Notes under the pieces: generated by a model
Seen by the model: only the letters and a program-made list of their open reading frames with translations
Databases searched by the model: none
What the model was told of the DNA's origin: nothing
Source of the DNA: Arenicola marina
Lineage: Eukaryota; Annelida; Polychaeta; Arenicolidae
DNA length: 64,000 nucleotides
Reading direction: 5' to 3'
Assembly: GCA_964019135.1 (NCBI GenBank)
Contig: OZ025252.1
Coordinates: 44,180,959-44,244,958 of the forward strand
Made by a program: the position numbers and the translations under genes
Part shown: piece after piece, positions 2,340 through 37,943 of the stretch
Position numbering within the stretch: position 1 is the stretch's first letter
Layout of the letters: each line of letters starts with the position of its first letter

Positions 2340-5300
2340 CTCCATATCACAGAAATCGTGACGATGCAAACGCGTGTCCGACGTTCCCATGAGTTGGTTG
2401 GCACCAACTGGTTTATCGTCTCTCATACCCAGTGACGAGGCAGACGCGTTCCCGTTACGAAGTAAATGTCAGACAGTACTGGCGACCGGGTACTGCCAGG
2501 ATGGGGGCTCTGTCTCACATAGATCCACATACCCCAGCCGTGACGACGTCAACGCGTCCCCATCCAGGGGGTCTTGAGGCAGTGCCGCGTGACGACCAGT
2601 TGTTAGGGAAGACGAGAGTCCTGTATGACATACCCCGTGACGACGTCTACGCGTCCCCTTCACGGGGTATGTGATAGACACAGTGACGACCAGTTGTTAG
2701 GGAACACGAGCGTCCTGTATGACATACCCCGTGACGACGTCGACGCGTCCCCTTCACGGGGTATGTGACAGACACAGTGACGACCAGTTGTTAGGGAACA
2801 CGAGCGTCCTGTATGACATACCCCGTGACGACGTCGACGCGTCCCCTTCACGGGGTATGTGACACACCCAGTGACGACCGGTTGTTAGGGAACACGAGCG
2901 TCCTGTATGACATACCCCATGACGACGTCGACGCGTCCCCTTCACGGGGTATGTGACAGGCACAGTGACGACCAGTTGTTAGGGAACACGAGCGTCCTGT
3001 ATGACATACCCCGTGACGACGTCGACGCGTCCCCTTCACGGGGTATGTGACACACCCATTGACGACCGGTGGTTAGGGAACACGAGCGTCCTGTATGACA
3101 TACACCGTGACGACACCGACGCGTCCCCTTCACGGGGTATGTGATAGACACAGTGACGACCGGTTGTTAGGGAACACGAGCGTCCTGTATGACATACCCC
3201 GTGACAACGTCGACGCGTCCCCTTCACGGGGTATGTGATAGACACAGTGACGACCTTTGCAGCATGATAACCTGTCCGCCGTGATAAAGTGTCCGTCTGA
3301 CGTGCACGCATGCGCAGCGAATGGGGTTGCTATGTAAATAGCGCATTTTTGTTAGGTTTAGGGTTAGGTTAGGATTAGATTAGGGTCAGGGTTAGGGTTA
3401 GGGTTAGAATTAGGGTTCTGGTTAGGGTTAGTGACATGAAAGAAGCGTGGCCGGACAGGTTACAACGGCCGGACAAGTTACTATGTTACACCGGTTGTTA
3501 AGGAAGACGAGCGTCCTGTATGACATACCCCATGACGACGTCGACGCGTCCCCTTCACGGGGTATGTGATAGACCCAGTGACGACCAGTTGTTAGGGAAG
3601 ACGAGCGTCCTGTATGACATACCCCATGACGACGTCGACGCGTCCCCTTCACGGGGTATGTGATAGACCCAGTGACGACCAGTTGTTAGGGAACACGAGA
3701 GTCCTGAATGACATACCCCGTGACGACGTCGACGCGTCCCCTTCACGGGGTATGTGACACACCCAGTGACGACCGGTTGTTAGGGAACACGAGCGTCCTG
3801 TATGACATACCCCGTGACGACGTCGACGCGTCCCCTTCACGGGGTATGTGATAGACACAGTGACGACCAGTTGTTAGGGAACACGAGAGTCCTGAATGAC
3901 ATACCCCGTGACGACGTCGACGCGTCCCCTTCACGGGGTATGTGATAGACCCAGTGACGACCAGTTGTTAGGGAACACGAGAGTCCTGAATGACATACCC
4001 CATGACGACGTCGACGCGTCCCCTTCACGGGGTATGTGATAGACCCAGTGACGACCAGTTGTTAGGGAACACGAGAGTCCTGAATGACATACCCCATGAC
4101 GACGTCGACGCGTCCCCTTCACGGGGTATGTGATAGACCCAGTGACGACCAGTTGTTAGGGAACACGAGAGTCCTGAATGACATACCCCATGACGACGTC
4201 GACGCGTCCCCTTCACGGGGTATGTAAGACAGTAACGACCAGTTGTTAGGGAACACGAGCGTCCTGTATGACATACCCCGTGACGACGTCGACGCGTCCC
4301 CCTCACGGGGTATGTGATAGACACAGTGACGACCGGTTGTTAAGGAACACGAGCGTCCTGTATGACATACCCCGTGACGACGTCGACGCGTCCCCTTCAC
4401 CGGGTATGTGACAGACACAGTGACGACCGGTTGTTAGGGAACACGAGCGTCCTGAATGACATACCCCGTGACGACGTCGACGCGTCCCCTTCACCGGGTA
4501 TGTGACAGACACAGTGACGACCAGTTGTTAGGGAACACGAGCGTCCTGTATGACATACCCCGTGACGACGTCGACGCGTCCCCTTCACGGGGTATGTGAC
4601 AGACACAGTGACGACCAGTTGTTAGGGAACACGAGCGTCCTGTATGACATACCCCATGACGACGTCGACGCGTCCCCCTCACGGGGTATGTGACAGACAC
4701 AGTGACGACCAGTTGTTAGGGAACACGAGCGTCCTGTATGACATACCCCGTGACGACGTCGACGCGTCCCCTTCACGGGGTATGTGATAGACACAGTGAC
4801 GACCAGTTGTTAGGAAACACGAGCGTCCTGTATGACATACCCCATGACGACGTCGACGCGTCCCCTTCACGGGGTATGTGACAGACACAGTGACGACCAG
4901 TTGTTAGGGAACACGAGCGTCCTGTATGACATACCCCGTGACGACGTCGACGCGTCCCCTTCACGGGGTATGTGACAGACACAGTGACGACCAGTTGTTA
5001 GGGAACACGAGCGTCCTGTATGACATACCCCATGACGACGTCGACGCGTCCCCTTCACGGGGTATGTGACAGACACAGTGACGACCAGTTGTTAGGGAAC
5101 ACGAGCGTCCTGTATGACATACCCCGTGACGACGTCGACGCGTCCCCTTCACGGGGTATGTGACAGACACAGTGACGACCGGTTGTTAGGGAACACGAGC
5201 GTCCTGTATGACATACCCCGTGACGACGTCGACGCGTCCCCTTCACGGGGTATGTGACAGACACAGTGACGACCAGTTGTTAGGGAACACGAGCGTCCTG

Positions 5301-6300
5301 TATGACATACCCCATGACGACGTCGACGCGTCCCCTTCACGGGGTATGTGACAGACACAGTGACGACCAGTTGTTAGGGAACACGAGCGTCCTGTATGAC
5401 ATACCCCATGACGACGTCGACGCGTCCCCTTCACGGGGTATGTGACACACCCATTGACGACCGGTGGTTAGGGAACACGAGCGTCCTGTATGACATACCC
5501 CATGACGACGTCGACGCGTCCCCTTCACGGGGTATGTGAGACAGTGACGACCGGTTGTTAGGGAACACGAGCGTCCTGTATGACATACCCCATGATGACG
5601 TCGACGCGTCCCCTTCACGAGGTATGTGACAGACACAGTGACGACCGGTTGTTAGGGAACACGAGAGTCCTGAATGACATACCCCGTGACGACGTCGACG
5701 CGTCCCCTTCACGGGGTATGTGAGACAGTGACGACCGGTTGTTAGGGAACACGAGCGTCCTGAATGACATACCCCGTGACGACGTCGACGCGTCCCCTTC
5801 ACGGGGTATGTGAGACAGTGACGACCGGTTGTTAGGGAACACGAGCGTCCTGTATGACATACCCCGTGACGACGTCGACGCGTCCCCTTCACGGGGTATG
5901 TGAGACAGTGACGACCGGTTGTTAGGGAACACGAGCGTCCTGTATGACATACCCCATGATGACGTCGACGCGTCCCCTTCACGAGGTATGTGACAGACAC
6001 AGTGACGACCGGTTGTTAGGGAACACGAGAGTCCTGAATGACATACCCCGTGACGACGTCGACGCGTCCCCTTCACGGGGTATGTGAGACAGTGACGACC
6101 GGTTGTTAGGGAACACGAGCGTCCTGTATGACATACCCCGTGACGACGTCGACGCGTCCCCTTCACGAGGTATGTGACAGACACAGTGACGACCGGTTGT
6201 TAGGGAACACGAGCGTCCTGTATGACATACCCCGTGACGACGTCGACGCGTCCCCTTCACGGGGTATGTGACAGACACAGTGACGACCGGTTGTTAGGGA
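2340..6300. repeat. 94-bp satellite array, about 37 units, with embedded hairpin
   Basis: The unit is 94 bp. It runs GTGACGACCAGTTGTTAGGG, then AACACGAGCGTCCTGTATGA, then a 12-bp perfect inverted repeat (CATACCCCGTGA ... TCACGGGGTATG) around a 19-base loop rich in CpG and holding GACGTC, GTCGAC and ACGCGT, then a CAGACACA linker. Copies are highly similar from about 2589 to 6300 and decay at the left edge (2340-2560). A 90-bp variant lacking 4 bases of the linker appears repeatedly at about 5540-6150 and once near 4230. Overlapping minus-strand frames here all arise from the repeat and are not genes. Confidence 0.95.
3256..3489. mobile_element. 234-bp TIR insertion with telomere-like core, inside the satellite
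   Basis: The 94-bp periodicity breaks exactly here, and ACC is repeated on both sides (3253-3255 and 3490-3492), which suggests a 3-bp target duplication. The ends form an imperfect inverted repeat of about 38 bp: ATAACCTGTCCG at the left and, on the minus strand from the right, GTAACTTGTCCGG, each followed by a second TGTCCG block. The middle (about 3349-3436) is built of GGTTAG/TTAGGG variants. No frame codes for a transposase. Confidence 0.7.
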
Positions 6301-9300
6301 ACTCCTGTTACAGCAACTGGACTGGCCCTTCTTGAAACGATTTTTACCCCCGCCCATGCTTATATATATTACCCAACGGATCATTATGTTCTCAACACTT
6401 ACCACCCGTCAATTGTAAACTTGCCGCCGAGTCATTCACTAGACATTTCTGTTAACGATCCCGGGAGAGGGGCACGCGATATAAAAGCCATTATACGCTG
6501 TTCGATCATGAACCGAAGAAGAATTAGTCGATATGACATTGGAACAATCTATGCCCCCCCCCCCACCGCCGTCTCCATCCCTCTGAAAAATAAAATCCGT
6601 AACTGTCGAGGTGCGAAACGTGAATCTCAACTATCACAAAACACGTTAGCTGATAACCTTTTTTTTTTAACGAGCACGTAGCATCCCATTTCTGTAGTCC
6701 GATTGCGTATTTATAGAAGCGGTAGAAAGATAAATATAGATACATGCTAAATATATAAATACGAGAACTATTGTTAGGCATATCAACTGTGGATCAGACC
6801 TGAATAACACCAACGTATGCGGCGCCATATACCTTCAAACCAATTACTTTTATGCAATAATTTAATACTTTTAGCCAAAGCTACTTTCATCCCGACCGAA
6901 TATCATTCCGTTGACCGAAGTGACAAAATTCGGTCCACCTTGTGTCAAGATCCAACCGCATTCTGTCTACCGTCCTTTTCTTCTGCTTTTTTGTTTGGGG
7001 GGGGGGGGGGGGGGGTGGCACCCATACCATTTTTGAGAGAATTGTCTCAGACGAAACCACAAATGTCAGCCAGCAAACAATGGGGGGGGGGACACTACAT
7101 ATCGTTATATATATATATTATACCCCGCCCCTCTCTCTCTGTCCCCGTAGTGTTCATTCCAAATGTGCCCATAGGAGACAATTTTCTGCTGTTTCTGTTT
7201 CAATTTCAGTACATCCTTTGGTTGACGGAACTAAATTTGGTTCACCCCAAGGCGATTGGATAGAAACAAAAAGCACTTTGGTTGACGAAATGCAGTACGG
7301 TGTTAATGCACTTTGGCAGGACTATGGTTGACCGAATACACTTTGATAGGGAAGAAGATAACTTTGGTTGACGGAGCGAACTGGTTCACCCAAGGAAATT
7401 TGATAGGGGCAAAAAAAACTTCGGTTGACCGAATGCAGTATGGTGGGTGGCCTATGGTGGTAATGGAAGTACCTTCAAATGAACTTTCGTCAAGACATAC
7501 ATTTCATGGAAAAACCTATTATGAAGACCACATGAACGACGTAACACTTGTCGCCCAATACCAAGGCATCCCTTAATATAGTAAATGGTGTAGGAGCTTG
7601 TTCAATTAAAGGTATTCTCTTTCAAGAGCGGATCCAGGACATAGAAAAGGGCGCGGTAGGTCCTCATTGCGCGGATGGAGCTCTCCAAATATACAAAGGC
7701 GATGGGGGTACATAAACAAGGAAAGTCTCCTCAACTAAAATAGAATAAAAACGGGCCTGGCGTGATCCAGCCGAAATCACTCTACGTCAGAGCCATATGC
7801 GAATGGGCCGATTGAAAGTTAAAAGTAAAATATTGCACCCATCAAATTAAACTATTGTAAGCAAAAGATTCATCAACACTTTAGATTTAAACGTATTTAT
7901 TAGTGAACTGGGACAAATAAATTACACATCGAATCGTGTTTATATACAGGGGAACATAAATTATTCGAATTAGCACGAATTCGTAAATGACCAAGTTTAT
8001 ACATATATTCATGTGGATTACAGAAGGTTTCACAATTTGCTTGCTTGATCTCTAGGTCAAATAGTTTCTGATCAATGGAATAGTGATTGTGCAAGTAGGT
8101 TTCACATCAAACAACAAGATCACAACGGTCCATCTGATGGAAAAACAGTTACCTATAAAACGTTATCACTAACACTTCAGATTCATATAAAAAGGCACTG
8201 ACAGTGTCGTATGAATCTTAGACAGCTCAGAAGATTCTTCTGTACTGAAAATGCATGTCTGGGCTAAGGATTTTTTAAAATTCTTTTGACGGACAGAAAG
8301 GAAGCGGAACCGCCCTCCTCTTCGCAGGAGATATTGTTGGGGTTTGCCACTCAGCGAGAATGAAAATATGGAACTATTGAAATGCAACCGATTGACTTGC
8401 ATAAACCGGACCTACATTAATAGAGGAATTTCAAAGTGGGAATTAATTCCATGGATCCATGGAACCTGTCGCGTATATACTTATACTACGTATACATGCA
8501 AGCGGCACTGGTGTGTACAGGCGCCCGACACCGTTACTGAAGTCTATTGGTATACACACGATGAAGCAAACAATGAAATTGCTCGATACTTAGTAATGGT
8601 TTACATATCCTTGTTTAAAAGATAACCTATCGTAGACATTATACAGCATTTGCATATACAAAACAGGATACGTTCACTGAACCTTAGCATCTGACAACGT
8701 TTCACCTGCATTGTCCTTAATCTGGACGTATTCACAACCAGAATACCACGAAAAGTGCACTATACACATGTAGTTTAGATCAAATAAGAGTTAATTTAGG
8801 GCCTTGGATGTACAGAGAACAATTGCCGCTTGTTTACTACGAACACGTCACCAGGAGTATTTCGACGCCCCATATTTTGACTATTAGGACATAACACATG
8901 ACATATGGGCTGCGCGTATCTTCCAGATGTGGCAATAGTCCAGTAACAGGAGAAAGTACAGCTCTCTCTGCTGCCCTTTCCTTTCGAACGAACGCAATAA
9001 CCATAAATAACTGCACCAAAGAATACAGTTTAAGTACGGCTTTTACTAAACTCTTCCAGCGCAGTATGCTTCTTTATATTAGAGGCGCTCGAAATAGCAA
9101 CGATTCTAGAGAGTTAAGTTTTGAGATCATTAGTTTGCACTTCTTGTTGTAGTCACTACCACGTGTCACCCAGGTACCTATTTGTATCTGTCCTCTTCCG
9201 CCCAAGCATCTTCTTCACTAGGTACTAATACAATCCCACACCATAGGACGATCAATGTTTCCGACATACCGACCAAAAAATATTATACTATTAAGAGGAT

Positions 9301-28100: not shown

Positions 28101-31100
28101 ACGACTCTCGGCCGTGTTACTTCATCAAATATCGCCTCAGAAACTACGCCGCACGCTTTGTACGGCGTGTTGCGTGCGCCCTCTGCCGTGTGCCCGGGCC
28201 GTTCGGCTACCCCGTGCGGCGGAGCCTAGCCTCCTGCGATTATTGTGCATAACGCCATAAGGCCGACGGTACATGCAGACTGGTTGGTGCTGCGACCTTA
28301 CAATTACATGTGGCAGCGGGGAACAAGGCACAGAGAAGGGGGCAAGGTTGGCGAGGCCGCCGAGCCGCTGCGATCCGGTCCTCTACCCCCCACGCACCTC
28401 CTCCCCCGGACCAGCCGTTGTGGACTGACCCTGCATCGTCCTCACTAGGTTATGGGCTGTAATAGTTTCTACAGCATACTATATATATATATATATATAT
28501 ATATGTGCCATTTCTCAGTGCACTGGGAACCGTTATTCGCGCCACACAATGTAATTGGATGCAACTGCGAACCCCACCCCCTTGGACTAAGTACTGCCGC
28601 CACCCTCCTGCCACTCTCCTGCATGCTGCCACACCTTTTCCGGTCGAGGCCGCTTGACCCCACCAGGACTGCTTAACTTCCACCCCACCCCGGGTCCCCA
28701 TGTGGCCACGCCGCCTGCACTACCCGCTGCCGTCCGCCATGGCTGTCCACCCCTGGCTCCGTCTGCCACCCCAGTACCCAGGTAGGCCGTGCAGCTCATC
28801 TACAATGTATTACATGTACTACCATTGTGCATCTGTCTGGACCTCGCTTGTGTAGAACACACAAGGCACCTGTATGTGTATGTATATATTATGGTGTGGA
28901 ATTTCTATTCGAATAGAAATAGTAATCATTTATACTCATTTCCCTGCACACATGACACGCTTTCGTGTATGACACGCTCCATAATTGACTTAGCTAATTC
29001 TGCTAAAGCTGTTCATAAATGACGATTTAAAAAAAAGCTTTGATGACAATTGCTGTATGAGTAACATTGAAACTCCCCAAAACTATGAGAAAATGGTACT
29101 CCGACCGTTTGGGGCTCTGAGTCAGCAGTGAGTGACAGTATTTATGCAGACCTGGTATGCCGCAGGGACGTTTTTATCTGATTGCATCCTGTTTCGTTTT
29201 AAGTGTCGTGATGCCAAAGCGCATGTTACTCGTGTGCTAATGGTGTGAGCTGTTCCGTGTGGAATGTAATATAATTTAGAACGTGAGGTAGGAACTTAGG
29301 TTCATAGCCTGCAACGATCCACGAACCTAAGTTAGCGGTCAGTTTGCACATTTGATGAACCCCTCAACGCTGAAGAAATGGGTCTGAGACATGACTATTG
29401 TGACCCTCAACACAGACTCAAGGTTATGATTCGTCTTATGTACTCCCTTGCGCCCCCAGAACATTTGGACCACTCTGTTTAATTCTTGAAATTATAATGT
29501 TGCAAGAAATTACAGCTGATTTGACTGGTTTTCCAAAATCCTGAAATTTTACCCCCGGTCGACAGGTCAAAAGCGGTAACGGCGGGGCTTGCGTAGCGCC
29601 ACCAAGCGAATGGAACCTTTCATTAGGACTTGGCGGTGGGTAACAGCACGCCGTTGCAATACATGAATCTGAAGATGGTCATACATTGAAGATCAAAGGC
29701 CACTCCAGCCTTGGGGCTATCTTTGGTCTGCTTAGATGGTCCCCGTTTTCTCCTGACTTCTGTAAGGATCATCCTTTGAGTGCCATTGTTCACGACCTTC
29801 AGTCTCTCCGTGATGGCACGAGAATGGATATGAAAGGTTTCGCTACTTCCGGTTGGCGCCCACGCGCCTTCGCCGTTCGAAGCAATGCGCAATTGGGCAC
29901 TTGCAGCATTCCGTGGAAAAGGGTCAAGGTTGCATTGGTTATGACCTCATGCTCTTCTCTTAAAGTAGATCAAGGCCTTGCATCCGCGAAACAGAGGTGA
30001 TAACCACTTGTAATACCCGCACTGTTATCCCTAAGACGACGGTTGCCACGGAAACGTATTAAACCTCACTGGCTGCATACCATTGCCTAGAACCGGAAGT
30101 CGTGGCGTTTCCGTGGCATGGGTGTATATATATAATGGACTCCATGTGCCACGTAGTTGTCCTGGAGGCGGATTGCGCGCTTGGGCATCGATCGCGTCGT
30201 GACCATGGTGACCCGGGACGTCATTACGGAGTTAATGACCTCAGGCCGATACACACACAGCTTCCGCGTCGCCCGTGCCCCTGCCCCCACCCCGCGCTCT
30301 TTGTCAACCCCCGCGCGGCGGGTGTAAACATATGTCATGCATTAGATATATACCGCTATTGTATATGGCGCGGGGAACGTTTGCGTTGGTGGCCTTTTGT
30401 CTCTTGAACCCCTTGCTTCAGCCTCATCACACAGTCTGGTAAGCGGGGGGCGGAGGCGGAGTGGGCGTTAATTTGGACGTCAATGTTGTTTGTTGTGCCA
30501 TCATGATGTACATGGGTAGCGCCCCCCCCCCTCCCGGCCATCATGATGTACATGGGTAGCGCCCCCCCCCCCCTCCCGGCCATCATGATGTACATGGGTA
30601 GCGCTCCCCCCCCCCTCCCGGCCATCATGATGTACATGGGTAGCGCTCCCCCCCCCTCCCGGCCATCATGATGTACATGGGTAGCGCCACAGTCTGGTAA
30701 GCGAGGGGCGGAGGCGGAGTGGGCGTTATTTTGGACGTCAATGTTGTTTGTTGTGTTGTGTTGTTTTTTGCACTTGTTGGGAAAGGTAATGGTTTCCGTC
30801 GGGGCTTCACAAATATCAATTCTTTGTGACAAATTGTGATGCGCTATGAAGTAATTAGTTGGGGATGCGTAACAATACACGTTATAAAGACTGCTTTGGT
30901 GTGGATTACTAGAAAATGTAATGCTAAACCGATCCAAATTGTAGGGGGCCGGGATAACCATAACCGGGATATGGGATAACTGTCATCATGAGGTTTTTGT
31001 TACTGATGTCGCTGTTGTCATATTAGCTTATTTACCTGATCTATGTCTTCTGGTTCTGGTCTGCGATGCGTGATCATTAATTATCACAGTGACTGATGCC

Positions 31101-34100
31101 ATGTCCCTGTGATTACATGGCCGCATACCAGATTTTTTACAGTTTTTTCATCTGTTACTGGTTATGAGATTAGCAAATTTTTTATTCAAGTCGCCAGGCC
31201 ATCATGATGTACATGGGTAGCGCCCCCCCCCCCGGCCATCATGATGTACATGGGTAGCGCCCCCCCCTTCCCTCCCGGCCAGGGGGGCCTCCCTGGTGTA
31301 GTGGTTAGCGCACCAGACCGCAGATCAATAGGTCCTGGGTTCGAATCCGGGCTCTGGCACCTAATCTGGGGCNNNNNNNNNNNNNNNNNNNNNNNNNNNN
31401 NNNNNNNNNNNNNNNNNNNNNNNNNNNNNNNNNNNNNNNNNNNNNNNNNNNNNNNNNNNNNNNNNNNNNNNNNNNNNNNNNNNNNNNNNNNNNNNNNNNN
31501 NNNNNNNNNNNNNNNNNNNNNNNNNNNNNNNNNNNNNNNNNNNNNNNNNNNNNNNNNNNNNNNNNNNNNNNNGTTAGTGGCTATTGGGAGGCGTCGCCCT
31601 GTCCCACAGCGCCGAGACTTGATAGATCTCGGTGAATCATGCCTGTTTATTGTCGGTCTTAAGCGTTCCAAACACGCGCGTCTCCGTTATGATCCATTCA
31701 TCCCGGGACAGCGATAGAAAATAGATCAAAATATCCCCCCCCCCTCCCTCCCTGCCTCCCCCCCCCCCCCTCCCTCCCTGCCTCCCCTCATCCCTCTCCT
31801 TTCTTTCTTAACGCTTGAACTGTTCGCAAATTGCATGGAAGCATAGTACTGGACGTACACGATGCTTGCGGGCGAAACATGGTGGAAATAATGACTTCGC
31901 TGTGGGCAGCGACAAATATCTATTATGAAGTTTCGCTTTCAAGGATTTCTCGTGATTGATTTGAACTACGAAGTGGCATATCAAATGTCCCATCAGTCTA
32001 CGATAGCAACAAAGGTATCCCTTGCCTATAGTTATTGCTGTCACCCCGAATGAACCCTCTCGACTGTGCACGGCACTTTGAATACAGTTAAAGCAAAGCC
32101 TTAGTATAAGTCGATTTACGTATCAACATATTGGATTCTTATGATTTTATAACTTATGTTACGTTGTAACCCGAAACTAAGAAGTATCTTTTTGAATCAG
32201 TGTGTTTAAACGATATCCTTCCTTGTGTTTCAGACATGTGAACATCGGACCTCAGTACCAAGTGGAGCTGCCTCACTTTAGACGTAAGATACTTATTGAT
32301 TACCGCCCCTGTTCTGACCTTCTGGTCGGTCAAGCCGCTGGTACAAGGGTTCGAAGCCCTCGTTTTCAAGGCAGATCAGACAATGTCTCTACAAGAAAAA
32401 GTGCCATAAAAGAAAGAAAAGACCTTGCCGTTGTAGCATATGGCATGTTAAATATTCCTGCATTAAGCATCTAAATCGTGGGTTCGGGGAAGCCATGGGT
32501 TACCACAAATCTCTTATATGACTCGGAACAACCAGATAATGCAGATCGAGAAATATATGCTTCGTGTATTCCACAAAAATACATAATGGTTACTTAGAGC
32601 GTGTGTTTACTATCAATGCTGACTGATGGTTACGGACAGGTCATTTGTCACAGTCAATTTGTATAAGTGGCTATATAAAAATTAACTTTCGAGGTCTTTT
32701 GTTTCTGCTGAAAGTGTAACATAGATATTGTATGGGGTAGTATTACCAAAATTTAGTCCTCCCCGTAAATATATTATAGAATTGACAAACCTGTGTTTTG
32801 TTATGAAGGTCAGACGCATTTAACTTGGCCCTCATAAAAATGTTGATTGTTACAGCGTTTTTGTGTTCACAGCTAATGTTGAATTTTTCAAGCTATTGGC
32901 CAATTGTGGAGTCATCCATCCCCCACACACCGCCCACTCCGGCCCAACTGACGGGTCTTCGCTTCGTGAAGCAACCATTGTGCAAACGGGATTTGATAAA
33001 TAAATAATGGCGAAGAGGCAACAGAACGAAGAAATCACTCACTGAAGCGGGGGGGAATTAGACAGTGGGAGGGAAGGTCGGCGGATGGAGGGAGGAGGAT
33101 GTGTGCGGGGTGGGTGGGTGGAAAGAACATTAATAAATTAGGGGGTGTTAACGACTGTAATGATTCATAGCAGTGTCGGTAGTTCTTGCAGTCCCCGCCG
33201 CGGCGCTGTTAATGCGGCGTTCTGAGCCCGGGCCTCCCCCCGTCGTGAGGCTGGCTCTAAACAAAGGCCCCGTGGTGTGGTCGTTACGCGGCCATGAAAG
33301 GCCTGGGCCGGGGGACCCTTTTAATATCTCGTTACCAGCCATGGAGCTGGAGGGACGGTGTACAAATAACCTTGCAGGTATTGGAATAGCTGTTTTTTAT
33401 CACACTGATAACACTAGTGAAGCGCGCCCGTGGCCGAGTTTGATCCAACGTCACGCGGGATTCTCGTGATTTATGACCGAGAACCCGATGAGGCCTGACT
33501 AAGGAGATTGTTTGAATGGTAGTGCGTGCGAGAGTCCAGCGTTCGCCTGTAGAAACTATCGTTTTCGAACTCGTTGTTTAAATAAACGCCCCCGCCCCCC
33601 CCCCCCACGTGCAAAGAAATCAATGGTTCCTTCAACGACAAAGACAACAGGTACCTGTTAAGCACATTTGTATACTGTTTTTGCTGTCATTATTAATTAT
33701 CCAACACTTGGGGTAACGTGGTTGGGGGTCCGACTGGTGATGATAGATGATAGATAGCCTTTTCATTGTTTACTAAATAAAGAAAGGTAGAATTGTTCTC
33801 TCCGCGACCGGTGGCATTGACTAGGCCTCAATTCTGATGCGTGCATCATACACTTTCTGTATCAGTTTTCTGCAGTAAAGAAATCCCAAAAATTGACTTC
33901 TGATAAGCCATAAATCGACTCAAATAAAGAAAAGGGTCAGATATATATAACATGAACACGTTCTTAATCTTGAAAAGTTCGCATGTCGAAAAAAAGGTCG
34001 AGGAAGTAAGCATGATACATCTGGCAATAGTAGTGTAACCGTCTGTGAAGTCTAGTCAGGTCCTCGTGTTCCAACAGACGCCAGCAGGATGTTCACTAAC

Positions 34101-37100
34101 GCAGCTCCTCATTGCGCCTTGTTTTCCTGTCTCCAGGCAACCGACGAGAAGCGCTGGATGGGAACGACCGCGGCGTGCTCATGTGGGACCCTGCTATCAT
34201 GGAGGACATCACTGAAGACGAAGGTATGTGTCGCCATGCCAACCGCGTTGGCGTCGCCATGGCAACCTCGTTTGCGTCGTGCGTTATTACACCTTTTTAT
34301 AGGTACATTCTGGCGTCATGGTTCCGTAAGAAACTGTTGTCTCCCCCCCTCGCCGCGTAAAGACCCTCTCCCGTTCGTCGCATGGTAGAAACACTCTGGT
34401 ACGTGAGATTGAGCCAACTGGAATTACTTTGAGTTTCTATGGTCATAAAGCCTTGCTGAGGCAGGTCTCAATTAGTTGATCAGTGTAATGTCCTTCTTTG
34501 GACATTCACAAAACATTTCCTTTGTCACTATATGACGTCACGACATGGTCTTGTCATCACTACTTGCAGTGCAATATTACCAGGACTTCGCCTGCTGCGC
34601 TGCCATCCCTGGCAATGGAACCAACAAAGAATACGCGCTGCATCTCCTGCAACAGTGCAAAGGACATATCAAGGTAGCAGATGTTTAATCTCTTGCCAAT
34701 CATGTGCAGTTCGGTGACAGCTCACATCTCACAGAGCAAACTATTGTTTTAAACAGAGAAACCTGACACAGAGTCTTTCACCCAAACATTTCATGACGTT
34801 CTGGTTAAGGCAAATGGTTTCATTGATAGGTTTGTCATCTGTCCTTCAACAAGACAAACACTTGGGATATTGGCTTCGAACCCATTGATTGAATGGCATG
34901 TTTAATTAGCAGGATCTGCCATTTTATATATTTTCTGTGGTTGGGTGTATATACCATAGCATAGCGAGAATGCGCAACAGCTGTAGCGTGTTGACAAATA
35001 GTTCGTTCTCATTGTCTGACTGACAGCCGAGTTAAGTATATACCATGCCATACAGTAGTAGAAACTAGGCGTATATTTGTAATCATCTCAAGCATACGGA
35101 TTATATGATCATAATGTAATATTAATAGTACGTACCAATAATGTAATGCATTATGATCTATGTTAATAATCAGTGTGTTAATCACGTTCTTATTTGCGTT
35201 GCAGAAAGCCATGTTAAAGCTGATGCAGGGTGAACCTCGGATATCCAGACACAACACCATGGCTACCTACAAATATGACGGTCAGTACGGTAACTGAGTA
35301 CATGATTACCGTTAAACAAACCCCAGCGGATGCTTACTCAGTGCGCAAGTTCTATGAAACATTATTTTCATTATCACATTTGATTTCAATACTAACGCGT
35401 ATGTGTAAATATTCGGACAATCTTTAAATATATTAGGGTAAGTTTTCGGTCAGGGGAAATACTTATTTTTGTTTAGTATTGTCCGATTAATTACTTGAAA
35501 TACCATAGTGCAGTTAGTATGATAACTTATTATATAATTGAAATACCGGTTATAGAAGTCGCTGTACGGTACCAGTGTCGCTGTACGGTGCCGGTGTCGC
35601 TGTACGTTGCCAGTGTCGCTGTACGGTGCCAGTGTCGCTGTACGGTGCCAGTGTCGCTGTACGGTGCCAGTGTCGCTGTACGGTGCCAATGTCGCTGTAC
35701 GGTGCCAGTGTCGCTGTACGGTGCCAGTGTCGCTGTACGGTGCCAGTGTCGCTGTACGGTGCCAATGTCGCTGTACGGTGCCAGTGTCGCTGTACGGTGC
35801 CAGTGTCGCTGTACGGTGCCAGTGTCGCTGTACGGTGCCAGTGTCGTTGTACGGTGCCATTGTCGCTGTCCTGCTGGTATTGACGGCTCGGATGTATCAT
35901 GACGTCCTCCTTACTTCACAGAATGTGACTCCTGGACGTCGGAGGAGGTCGAGAGTTATCATCAGGGACTCATCAAGTGTGACAAAGACTTCTTTAACAT
36001 TGCTCGGGAGGTAAGCGCTACCCATGTAGCTAGGTGTCCGTTAGGTAGCCTAAATCCTGGACACAAGTCACGTAACGAAACCAGTTTCTTTTCGTTTCAA
36101 TTAAAGCCTTATTCTGGGCGAATAAGACTAACATTTGATAAGAAATGATTGCAGCAAGTGTTATTTACGCAACTATTGGAGACCCCCCCCCCCCTCCGCC
36201 TGATTTTGAACAACATTTGAATTGTTACAACGGAAAACGCACGCACAGACACCATTTTGCACGAATTTCTGAAAAATTACGGTAAGGGCCAAAGTTTTAA
36301 TCTGTTAACACAATGCCATTATTTTAACCTGCAGGTTGGTACAAAGACTGTGAAGCAGTGTGTTCAATTCTACTATCTGTGGAAGAAGGTCTGCGCGGAC
36401 GAATACCGCAAGCTGCGCATCCTTCGGCGCAAGCGAGAACAGGACGAGCTCTACAATCTGCGGTCGCGCAATGCGCAGGCGCAAGCTTCAGGCGCCGAAC
36501 AACCACCGGAGAAGTGCAATGGATACCCTTCCCCCAACGGCGACGAGGTAGGGGGTGTGGGTGTGGGTGCGGCGCCGAGGTAGGGGGTGTGGGTGTGGGT
36601 GCGGCGCCGAGGTAGGGGGTGTGGGTGTGGGTGCGGCGCCGAGGTAGGGGGTGTGGGTGTGGGTGCGGCGCCGAGGTAGGGGGTGTGGGTGTGGGTGCGC
36701 CGTCTCCGTGTTGTTATCCTAAAGCTGAACCCGAGCGGTTATCGTGTGTTGTTGATGATACATGTATGTTTTACTTCACATCGCGTCACTTGCTGTACGA
36801 CTTATGACATGATGTACGCATGTGTAGGGGGAATTAGTTTGATTACAAACTGCGCCATAATGATACATGGAGAAATACTGGTTACTGAAATTGATATCTT
36901 AGACGAAGAGAACTCTGCAATGCTCTAATTACTGTGTTACCTATCTCTTCTCCGTAAAAACAATATGTTTTTTTCCAATGTGAACAGATACCTAAATATG
37001 ATTTGTTTTGCCTCTGACCTTGCAGGATCATCACGACAATGCGGCTTTTCACTGTGATTACCCCGGGTGCACGGCGGTAAGGGCATGGCTTGTGTTAGGT

Positions 37101-37943
37101 CGCTGGTTTACAAGCTAATGTTCGACAGAATAAACTGGCCGGGCAAAATGTACAACTTAAGCAACATTAGATCATGGCATCATGGTGTGCATCTGTTTTC
37201 TAAGTCTGACAGTTAAAACATTTGATCCATCATGATAATCTATAGCTTGCAATGTATGGCATATTTATGTTCTGAACTAATATTTCTTACTTCACTTTAA
37301 TAATTGTGTCGTTTGGCTCTTTCAGACGTTCAACTCCAAACAGGCTCTAAATGGCCATATACGTATCCATGGCGGTAGTTATGGTAACCGGACGCGCGAG
37401 AATAGCCCGAAGCCCAGCAACGGCCGCGCCACTCCCTCGCCGGGTCCTCCTTCCAACAAGTCTGATGAAACTGAGGAAGGAGTGTACACGTGTAAAATAT
37501 GTGGAAAGTGAGGATTGTTCCCATACTTGATCTGAAATCAGTTCTCTGTCTGAATGTTCTAAAGAATATAATAATTCATATTTATCCTGCAATATAGGTC
37601 ATTCTGTGGTATTTTTCATCAAGCGTCGATTCATTTCGGGGAAAAAATACTTATAAAAACTGTCGGTATCTCACCAAAATGCTCGTATATTTAGGAATTG
37701 TGAAATGTTAATGTGCAAATATTTATGTAGCTTCATTTTTCATTTAGCTTCATATAATATGCCTCCACTACGCCCTGTTCGCCTAACTCTTAGTGTTTAA
37801 TGAAGATGCACGAACCTGACCTGTATATCTTAACTCTCCGCAGAGTCTTCACAAAGATAAAGAGTCGCTGTGCGCACATGAAAAGTCACAAACAGGCCGA
37901 TAACGCCGACAGGAGTCGCTCCCTGTACGACGAGAATGGATGA
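22184..37943 (+). CDS. ELM2-SANT-C2H2 corepressor subunit (ZNF541/TRERF1/MIDEAS family)
   Basis: Members scaffold class I histone deacetylases: ELM2 plus SANT recruit HDAC1/2. Recognised exons: 22184-23099 (305 codons, low complexity, Pro/His/Gly/Met-rich), 32234-32283, 34137-34223, 34570-34673, 35205-35280, 35922-36010, 36335-36547, 37026-37076, 37326-37507, 37844-37943 (stop TGA). From 32234 on, all phases join into 316 codons. ELM2 begins [13 protein letters not shown] and ends with [22 protein letters not shown] is [19 protein letters not shown] to [13 protein letters not shown]. Two C2H2 fingers follow: [20 protein letters not shown] with HIRIH, split by an intron, and [20 protein letters not shown] with KSH. 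The fingers favour ZNF541/TRERF1 over MIDEAS. Exon 22184-23099 ends in phase 1 but 32234 needs phase 2, so at least one exon in the 9-kb intron is missing from this model; that link is inferred from strand and spacing. Confidence 0.85.
24310..24666 (+). CDS. Uncharacterised open frame, possible exon
   Basis: A GC-rich plus-strand frame with no stop includes [19 protein letters not shown] and a Pro/Gly-rich stretch ending [11 protein letters not shown] near 24660. The composition resembles the Pro/Gly/His-rich 22184 exon, so it could be the missing middle exon of the ELM2-SANT gene. I could not place a clean acceptor in the right phase, and the frame runs on into simple sequence. No domain is recognised. 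Confidence 0.2.
24750..24904 (+). repeat. Homopyrimidine tract (CCCTTCC-type), about 150 bp
   Basis: The plus strand is almost purely C and T from about 24750 to 24904, built on CTCCTTCCCATCCCCCTTCC units. Such mirror-like polypurine.polypyrimidine DNA can form triplex (H-DNA). Confidence 0.85.
24964..25891. mobile_element. 928-bp TIR DNA transposon with 8-bp target duplication
   Basis: Both ends begin GGCTTAGTGTAAAAGACGAA and match perfectly for 26 bp (24964-24989 and the complement of 25866-25891). Perfect 8-bp direct repeats TGCAGGTC flank it (24956-24963 and 25892-25899). An 8-bp duplication fits hAT, P or Merlin-type transposases; the GG start is closest to Merlin, but this is not decided. 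The interior carries degenerate CCCTAA-type repeats (about 25150-25265) and the opposite-strand TTAGGG-like repeats (about 25290-25490). No transposase is visible, so it is non-autonomous. It lies in the 9-kb intron of the ELM2-SANT gene. Confidence 0.85.
28481..28504. repeat. (AT)12 microsatellite
   Basis: Uninterrupted AT dinucleotides. The neighbouring block 27800-28450 is GC-rich with many CpGs and a G13 run at 27999-28011; it could be a CpG island inside the intron. Confidence 0.9.
29623..29892 (-). CDS. Uncharacterised minus-strand open frame in the intron
   Basis: About 90 codons are open with a fairly even codon choice, including [18 protein letters not shown] and ending [11 protein letters not shown] before a stop. 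It opens at TTG, and the first in-frame ATG is internal. I do not recognise the product. It may be chance, an exon of an unseen gene, or a transposon fragment. Confidence 0.15.
   Translation of the reverse strand: MRIASNGEGAWAPTGSSETFHIHSRAITERLKVVNNGTQRMILTEVRRKRGPSKQTKDSPKAGVAFDLQCMTIFRFMYCNGVLLPTAKS
30430..31285. repeat. 41-bp minisatellite flanked by 68-bp direct repeats
   Basis: Five units of CATCATGATGTACATGGGTA followed by GCGC and a C-run of varying length start at 30499, 30539, 30581, 30623 and 30664. Two more lie at 31199 and 31238. A 68-bp sequence starting ACAGTCTGGTAAGCG and ending GTTTGTTGTG occurs on each side of the five-unit block (about 30430-30497 and 30688-30755). Confidence 0.85.
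31286..31372 (+). mobile_element. tRNA-derived SINE head, cut by an assembly gap
   Basis: An A-box-like TGGTGTAGTGGTTAGCGC and a B-box GGTTCGAATCC are correctly spaced, and the T arm pairs with one mismatch. The acceptor stem does not pair, so this is a SINE promoter region rather than a working tRNA gene. Its 3' body enters the N run. Confidence 0.65.
31373..31572. other. Assembly gap (200 N)
   Basis: Exactly 200 N bases, probably a placeholder length. It lies in the intron before the first ELM2 exon and could hide an exon or a longer SINE or minisatellite block. Confidence 0.99.
33150..33400. other. GC-rich block inside the ELM2 intron
   Basis: About 250 bp with many CpGs (for example GTCGTTACGCGGCCATGAAA) stands out from its AT-rich surroundings between the exons ending at 32283 and starting at 34137. 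The frame across it has no recognised domain. A regulatory element is possible. Confidence 0.25.
35560..35875. repeat. 19-bp minisatellite, about 16 units
   Basis: The unit is GTGTCGCTGTACGGTGCCA (19 bp) with few changes. It fills much of the intron between two exons of the ELM2-SANT gene and ends about 47 bp before the acceptor of the 35922 exon. As 19 is not a multiple of three, all six frames stay open, so the frames here are artefacts. Confidence 0.95.
36548..36698 (+). repeat. 32-bp minisatellite that repeats a splice donor
   Basis: Units start at 36548, 36580, 36612, 36644 and 36676 and read GTAGGGGGTGTGGGTGTGGG then TGCGGCGCCGAG. The first unit begins exactly at the donor of the 36335-36547 exon (GAG then GTAGGG), and each later unit recreates GAG/GTAGGG. 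Four further donor-like sites are therefore present. Reading past the first donor adds [11 protein letters not shown] and then meets a stop. Confidence 0.95.

Follow-up and report, generated by a model that had tools for sequence, protein, structure and literature searches.

In a 64,000-nucleotide stretch of the Arenicola marina genome (the window), a minisatellite lying across an exon-intron border is, as judged from its sequence, a boundary-spanning "mirage", the structure named in amphioxus genes. The explanation that we consider probable is that this array grew recently and that its decoy donors are ignored or tolerated as near-neutral passengers. Taken singly, the array of the window is an ordinary case of a known kind, and the surprising part is the frequency of the kind in an annelid. 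On the basis of about 11% of the sampled donors, we tentatively put forward the possibility, still on the doubtful side, that a large share of the introns begin with 2 to more than 20 copies of the exon tail plus donor, preferentially at 5′ sites and with the donors intact.

The host gene and the array at its exon border

Between 32234 and 37943, nine exons were read (Table 1; the upstream limit is where reading began), and when joined they were open to the stop codon and encoded 316 residues. The joined protein matched ELM2, Myb/SANT and C2H2 in Pfam, with the fingers placed after SANT, and its closest solved relative was the ELM2-SANT chain of MIDEAS (6z2j, E 3.2e-26). The gene was read as a putative MIDEAS/TRERF1/ZNF541-type gene, TRERF1 and ZNF541 being presumably grouped with MIDEAS in one gene family.

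Table 1. Exons, donors and minisatellites of the ELM2-SANT-C2H2 gene, in window coordinates (a slash marks the exon-intron junction)
Feature	Position	Strand	Description	Basis
ELM2 exon	32234..32283	+		Pfam ELM2 and translation
ELM2 exon	34137..34223	+		Pfam and translation
Second minisatellite in gene	34230..34279	+	23 bp × 2.2	Tandem Repeats Finder (TRF)
Exon	34570..34673	+	ends ...HIK	translation, solved-relative match
Exon	35205..35280	+		translation, solved-relative match
First SANT exon	35922..36010	+	ends ...ARE	Pfam Myb/SANT and translation
Exon, second part of SANT domain	36335..36547	+	71 codons, phase 0, ends ...GDE	translation
Boundary-spanning minisatellite	36538..36699	+	32-bp unit × 5.1, unit = CGGCGCCGAG/GTAGGGGGTGTGGGTGTGGGTG	TRF and unit comparison
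Donor 1, GAG/GTAGGG	36548..36553	+	sole donor keeping frame into C2H2 exons	
Decoy donor 2	36580..36585	+	+32 nt, frameshift, stop in exon starting 37326	translation
Decoy donor 3	36612..36617	+	+64 nt, in-frame TAG 36581-36583	translation
Decoy donor 4	36644..36649	+	+96 nt, in-frame TAG 36581-36583	translation
Decoy donor 5	36676..36681	+	+128 nt, in-frame TAG 36581-36583	translation
Exon	37026..37076	+	first half of C2H2 finger 1	translation
Exon	37326..37507	+	second half of finger 1 and first part of finger 2	translation
Last coding exon	37844..37943	+	end of C2H2 finger 2 and stop codon	Pfam and translation

Tandem Repeats Finder reported the array with period 32, 5.1 copies, 99% matches and a score of 317, far higher than the reporting threshold of 50, which served as the reference for this comparison. 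By direct reading, the intron side of the unit (22 nt, GTAGGGGGTGTGGGTGTGGGTG) was the same in all five units, and the exon side (10 nt) was CGGCGACGAG in the true exon and CGGCGCCGAG in all four copies, the two forms being identical at nine of ten positions with a single A/C difference (A in the exon, C in the copies). The identity of the four exon-side copies suggests recent growth. The original prediction had the repeat begin exactly at the border; the homology reaches 10 nt into the exon, the final 10 nt of which form the first exon-side copy, so that the unit of 10 nt of exon and 22 nt of intron spans the boundary without starting on it. Its central claim, that the minisatellite copies the real donor of the exon four extra times, was borne out, as GAG/GTAGGG was present in five of five units within an identical 9-mer (positions in Table 1). 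The authentic boundary lies at one copy, since by frame the first copy alone joins the next exon.

From donor 1, the frame stayed open across the two C2H2 fingers and ended at the stop codon of the last exon. The additions of 32, 64, 96 and 128 nt foreseen for donors 2 to 5 were obtained again by computation, and a stop in the second unit, also foreseen, was found for donors 3 to 5 but not for donor 2, which stops in a later exon. Between these stops and the last exon junction there were 157, 261, 293 and 325 nt for donors 2, 3, 4 and 5, respectively. A stop well before the last exon junction predicts nonsense-mediated decay, and at such distances decay would be expected with higher likelihood than the protein with ELM2 and SANT and without zinc fingers that had been proposed for late donors; a finger-less protein from the decoy donors is thus unlikely.

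The donor 9-mer had an approximate score of 7.9 against a median of 7.8 for donors sampled in the genome (approximate weight matrix), and, the 9-mers being identical, the copies equal in predicted strength the real donor that they had been said to recreate. Predicted pairing with the U1 5′ end was −9.8 kcal/mol, and −9.6 kcal/mol for the donor of the preceding exon. Unpaired probabilities of donors 1-5 were 0.45, 0.51, 0.20, 0.16 and 0.45 by RNA folding in one of two folding windows, and RNA structure was rejected as the reason for donor choice because folding gave donor 1 no consistent advantage.

A genome search, scoring best candidates only, gave 129 matches in the assembly (867 Mb, 762 contigs), of which the locus was the one full-length match. 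The other 128 were partial (69-85% identity) and fell within the repeat part of the query; as the seven that were read (400 nt each) were generic G-rich arrays, mostly GGGTGT/GGGTGCG, no sign of a dispersed family of the 32-bp unit was found among them. Elsewhere in the gene, the second minisatellite starts at about +7 of the 34224 donor and adjoins it without copying it, and one of the eight donors read is array-spanned, near the rate in the survey below. The intron leading to the first SANT exon contains a 19-bp array of 16.4 copies (35558-35869), which ends about 50 nt before the acceptor.

Donor-spanning arrays in myosin and kinesin genes

The sample for the survey consisted of exon matches of myosin (77 rows) and kinesin (133 rows) in the same genome. 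Five kinesin rows on three contaminant-like contigs were left out, and flanks were examined for 165 of the 205 remaining rows. Donor positions were picked near the end of each match by the approximate weight matrix, a donor was taken as spanned where an array reached at least 5 nt into the exon, and a mirrored rule was applied to acceptors.

By this rule, 18 of the 164 rows with a candidate donor (~11%, roughly one in nine) had the donor inside such an array, a rate to be read with the facts that some of the 164 are uncertain donors, as family matches may end at the domain end instead of the exon end, and that the genome search scores best candidates only and might favour repeats, a possible bias. 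Among the myosin rows 11 of 77 had a spanned donor, and among the kinesin rows 7 of 88; these donors were spread over 16 of 56 sampled 100-kb bins, and the first 55 rows (6) gave the same rate as the remaining 110 (12). With 18 of 164 sampled donors sitting in similar arrays, the array of the window is not special to its gene. Acceptors were array-spanned in 6 of 162 rows by the mirrored rule, significantly fewer than donors (Fisher p 0.018), or in 7 of 162 (p 0.036) when locus L069, seen by eye and missed by the script rule, was added. Five donor candidates had been dropped as unclear or short: in L038 and L054 (row 6743157) the exon end was unclear, and in L083 (~3 nt overlap), L025 (edge −3) and L104 (edge −1) the overlap was too short. 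One acceptor row (L054, row 6743751) was dropped from the acceptor count with its match inside the array.

Among the 18 donor arrays, periods ranged over 26-128 bp; the examined stretches contained 2.0-20.2 copies, 5-87 nt of exon lay within the array, and one exon was followed by as many as about 24 decoy donors. The arrays included L021 (62 bp, 24 decoys, KGDPIGGHINNYLLEK/GTAGGC), L054 (71 bp, 21 decoys), L060 (93 bp, 16), L041 (~100 bp, 14) and L111 (61 bp, at least three decoys in the short stretch examined, LGNVIMALANK/GTACGT), as well as L020, L128 and L148. As separate observations, acceptor and donor each lie in separate tandem arrays in L103, L111, L051 and L042 (two different exons in L042), and L028 (1276-1511, coding strand −) contains a unit of ~37 bp with polyC-CACAG TGTCATCATCAG/GTACGT in several copies; its 12-nt piece, acceptor-like at one end and donor-like at the other, gives the look of a row of micro-exons.

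Conservation of the decoys was measured by wraparound alignment in 15 arrays (14 of the 18 and L083). The decoy GT was intact in 126 of 128 copies, so that no sign of erosion or purging was seen in these arrays. The donor 9-mer had 13/1155 mismatches, compared with 98/4695 for the part derived from the exon and 192/2582 for the rest of the intron part. Relative to the exon-derived part, the decoy 9-mers were conserved slightly better (p 0.03), which is unconvincing because the copies are homogenised and the cells not independent, and which was nevertheless counted against the near-neutral explanation. Very strong decoy conservation (p 1e-9) was considered and rejected, as units cut at the donor favour matches there and wraparound alignment brought the value to p 0.03. 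When 69 decoys of the 18 arrays were scored (at most the first six per array), 53 met a stop, 14 gave a frameshift without a stop and two were open in frame, and the distance to the first decoy was a multiple of three in two of the 18 arrays. Both the outcomes and the distances argue against the decoys serving to produce protein variants.

Tandem Repeats Finder arrays covered 10% of the window and 22% of loci L012-L073 taken together (overlaps left in). With the region 101-600 nt downstream as the background for array starts (79-84 rows with long flanks), 5.7% of donors were expected to have an array start within the final 86 exon nucleotides, against the 11% that were spanned (p 0.01), and over −90 to +45 there were 39 array starts (uncurated, dropped rows included) against 14.8 expected (p 1e-7). 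Donors are without protection from arrays, with a modest excess near 5′ splice sites that may come in part from candidate selection by the search. The enrichment of array starts around donors is not predicted by a purely passive model and counts against the explanation that we prefer. In the 40 nt from +7, mirage introns (17) exceeded the others (123) in G-runs (p 0.003) and GC (p 0.0001), a richness to which the array itself contributes.

Origin of the array and use of its donors

The first extra copy would have arisen when the sequence was duplicated locally by slippage or template switching, perhaps where GGCGACG and GGCGCCG nearly match, with help from the G-rich intron start. GCGCCG is also present at the array end (GGGTGCGCCGTCT), and a slip between the exon GGCGACG and a downstream GGCGCCG-like stretch would yield the observed unit, with the A of the exon being older. 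Later copies would have been added recently by unequal exchange or slippage. The exon-proximal donor would normally be spliced, as the frame and the amphioxus cases suggest, and products of donors 2-5 would be cleared by nonsense-mediated decay; the decoys would thus persist as near-neutral passengers. The array of the window would then be one instance of a frequent kind, in a genome with abundant tandem arrays and with donors not protected from engulfment.

The five donors might instead truly compete at some rate, with the unit number setting the unproductive share as a copy-number dial on expression. This is unlikely in our judgement, despite the identity of the 9-mers at all five donors, their average strength, the G-runs beside each, and the premature stop reached from every decoy, which would fit a decay switch. 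In human IFI6, the repeat unit is taken by us to be 12 bp and hence to keep the frame, whereas the 32-bp unit of the window leads to a stop from every decoy, so that frame-keeping repeat donors of the presumed IFI6 type were not found here. Turri 1995 is said to be the source behind the statement on donors in this minisatellite. According to the available text, IFI6 (6-16, G1P3) resembles the array of the window in having minisatellite units that carry donors, and two of its downstream units are used as such (PMC4526556), a point in favour of competition. Amphioxus mirages, in the accessible parts of the reports, differ between haplotypes; that they reportedly leave regular splicing undisturbed (PMC3087553, PMC3902484) counts against competition, and in our sample, moreover, the structure occurs in many genes without fixed period or frame, and folding predicts no consistent access order among the five donors.

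Intron gain offers another reading of the same repeats, in which the array is an intermediate of this process or a dual-specific AG/GT array, and the unit is recruited as an exon piece or spliced stepwise. AG/GT is indeed present in each unit, and models have been published for amphioxus globins and human UBC (PMC10809524 for UBC, in the text available). Nevertheless, AG/GT was not enriched at mirage donors (11/18 against 85/123, p 0.59), and the window units have a G-rich stretch instead of a pyrimidine tract before AG, which would make them poor acceptors, so that we hold this reading to be very improbable. In the available text on human UBC and VCX3A, dual-specific sites likewise have AG/GT in each unit of a genic tandem array and the UBC arrays are spliced variably, with coding monomers included in variable number, whereas in the window only 10 nt of exon are copied and no acceptor context is seen (PMC10809524). 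Intron gain through tandem duplication of AGGT-containing segments, as described in the part of the source available (PMC4974935), shares with the array a tandemly duplicated splice-site segment and differs from it in that the intron of the window pre-exists and no new intron is shown. It is also hardly credible that the copy number is an assembly error or the array a sequencing artefact: near-perfect GC-rich repeats are error-prone and one assembly was available, yet the first unit is distinct from the others, the copies have diverged in several arrays elsewhere, and donor-spanning arrays occurred in 16 of the 56 bins.

Known systems and genome context

The closest likeness is to the amphioxus mirages, which in the accessible parts of the reports are tandem repeats across the exon-intron boundary in the Adh3, troponin C, globin (BflGb6/BflGb9) and PGBD5 genes, with the splice site copied in boundary-spanning units of ~10-160 bp (32 bp in the window); the globin paper notes that mirage copies with AG/GT could serve as cryptic sites (PMC3087553, PMC3902484). 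Haplotype and somatic instability are reported there, whereas the array of the window is known here from one assembly, and the PGBD5 copies are imperfect whereas those of the window are nearly perfect. Amphioxus is a cephalochordate; the array of the window belongs to an annelid, where the kind is frequent in the sample. In another annelid gene with intronic minisatellites, the earthworm metallothionein gene, one clone had two extra exon 4 copies, one reversed, which were absent from the transcript, and neither a splice-site-spanning repeat nor a head-to-tail minisatellite of exon copies is described in the portion of text available (PMC12783039). These repeats may be a related phenomenon. Among the matches listed in openly licensed literature (titles and abstract starts), no annelid boundary-spanning array was recognised.

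If even rare use is made of the decoys, unproductive splicing would have in them a source that is genome-wide and variable in copy number; if they are never used, they would form a natural experiment showing that as many as two dozen or so near-identical sites downstream are passed over in donor choice. How the spliceosome chooses among identical donors is a long-standing problem, usually approached through artificial constructs in which a donor is duplicated, and a genome with many natural arrays of 2 to more than 20 near-identical donors at known exon ends would make it readable from ordinary RNA-seq. Such a genome would also tell whether the boundary arrays of lancelets are what generally arises where minisatellites abound, and whether they open the way to new introns.

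On the mitochondrial contig (15.9 kb), COX1 was stop-free under the invertebrate code, as well as under codes 9 and 13, and not under the vertebrate code. The mitochondrial genes lay, by eye, on one strand in the order cox1, cox2, cox3, nad6, cob, atp6, nad5, nad4L, nad4, a gap with tRNA-Val, nad1, nad3 and nad2, which we take to be the usual annelid order. The erythrocruorin linker family PF16915, presumably typical of annelids, had four matches in the assembly. Gene order and linker family both indicate an annelid, and amphioxus, the source first considered on account of its mirages, was rejected. On contigs C390, C504 and C536 (L044, L045, L047, L048 and L053), which are probably contaminants, kinesin frames cross in-frame TAA/TAG; some ciliates read TAA/TAG as glutamine.

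The window also contains a 94-bp satellite at 2538-6302 (~38 copies in two blocks), which is interrupted by GTTAGG-like repeats at 3351-3431. Similar units of 37-42 bp (GCCATCATGATGTACATGGGTAGCGCCCCC) occur at 30497-30688 and 31197-31267, about 0.5 kb apart, and the latter are followed by a run of 200 N at 31373-31572.
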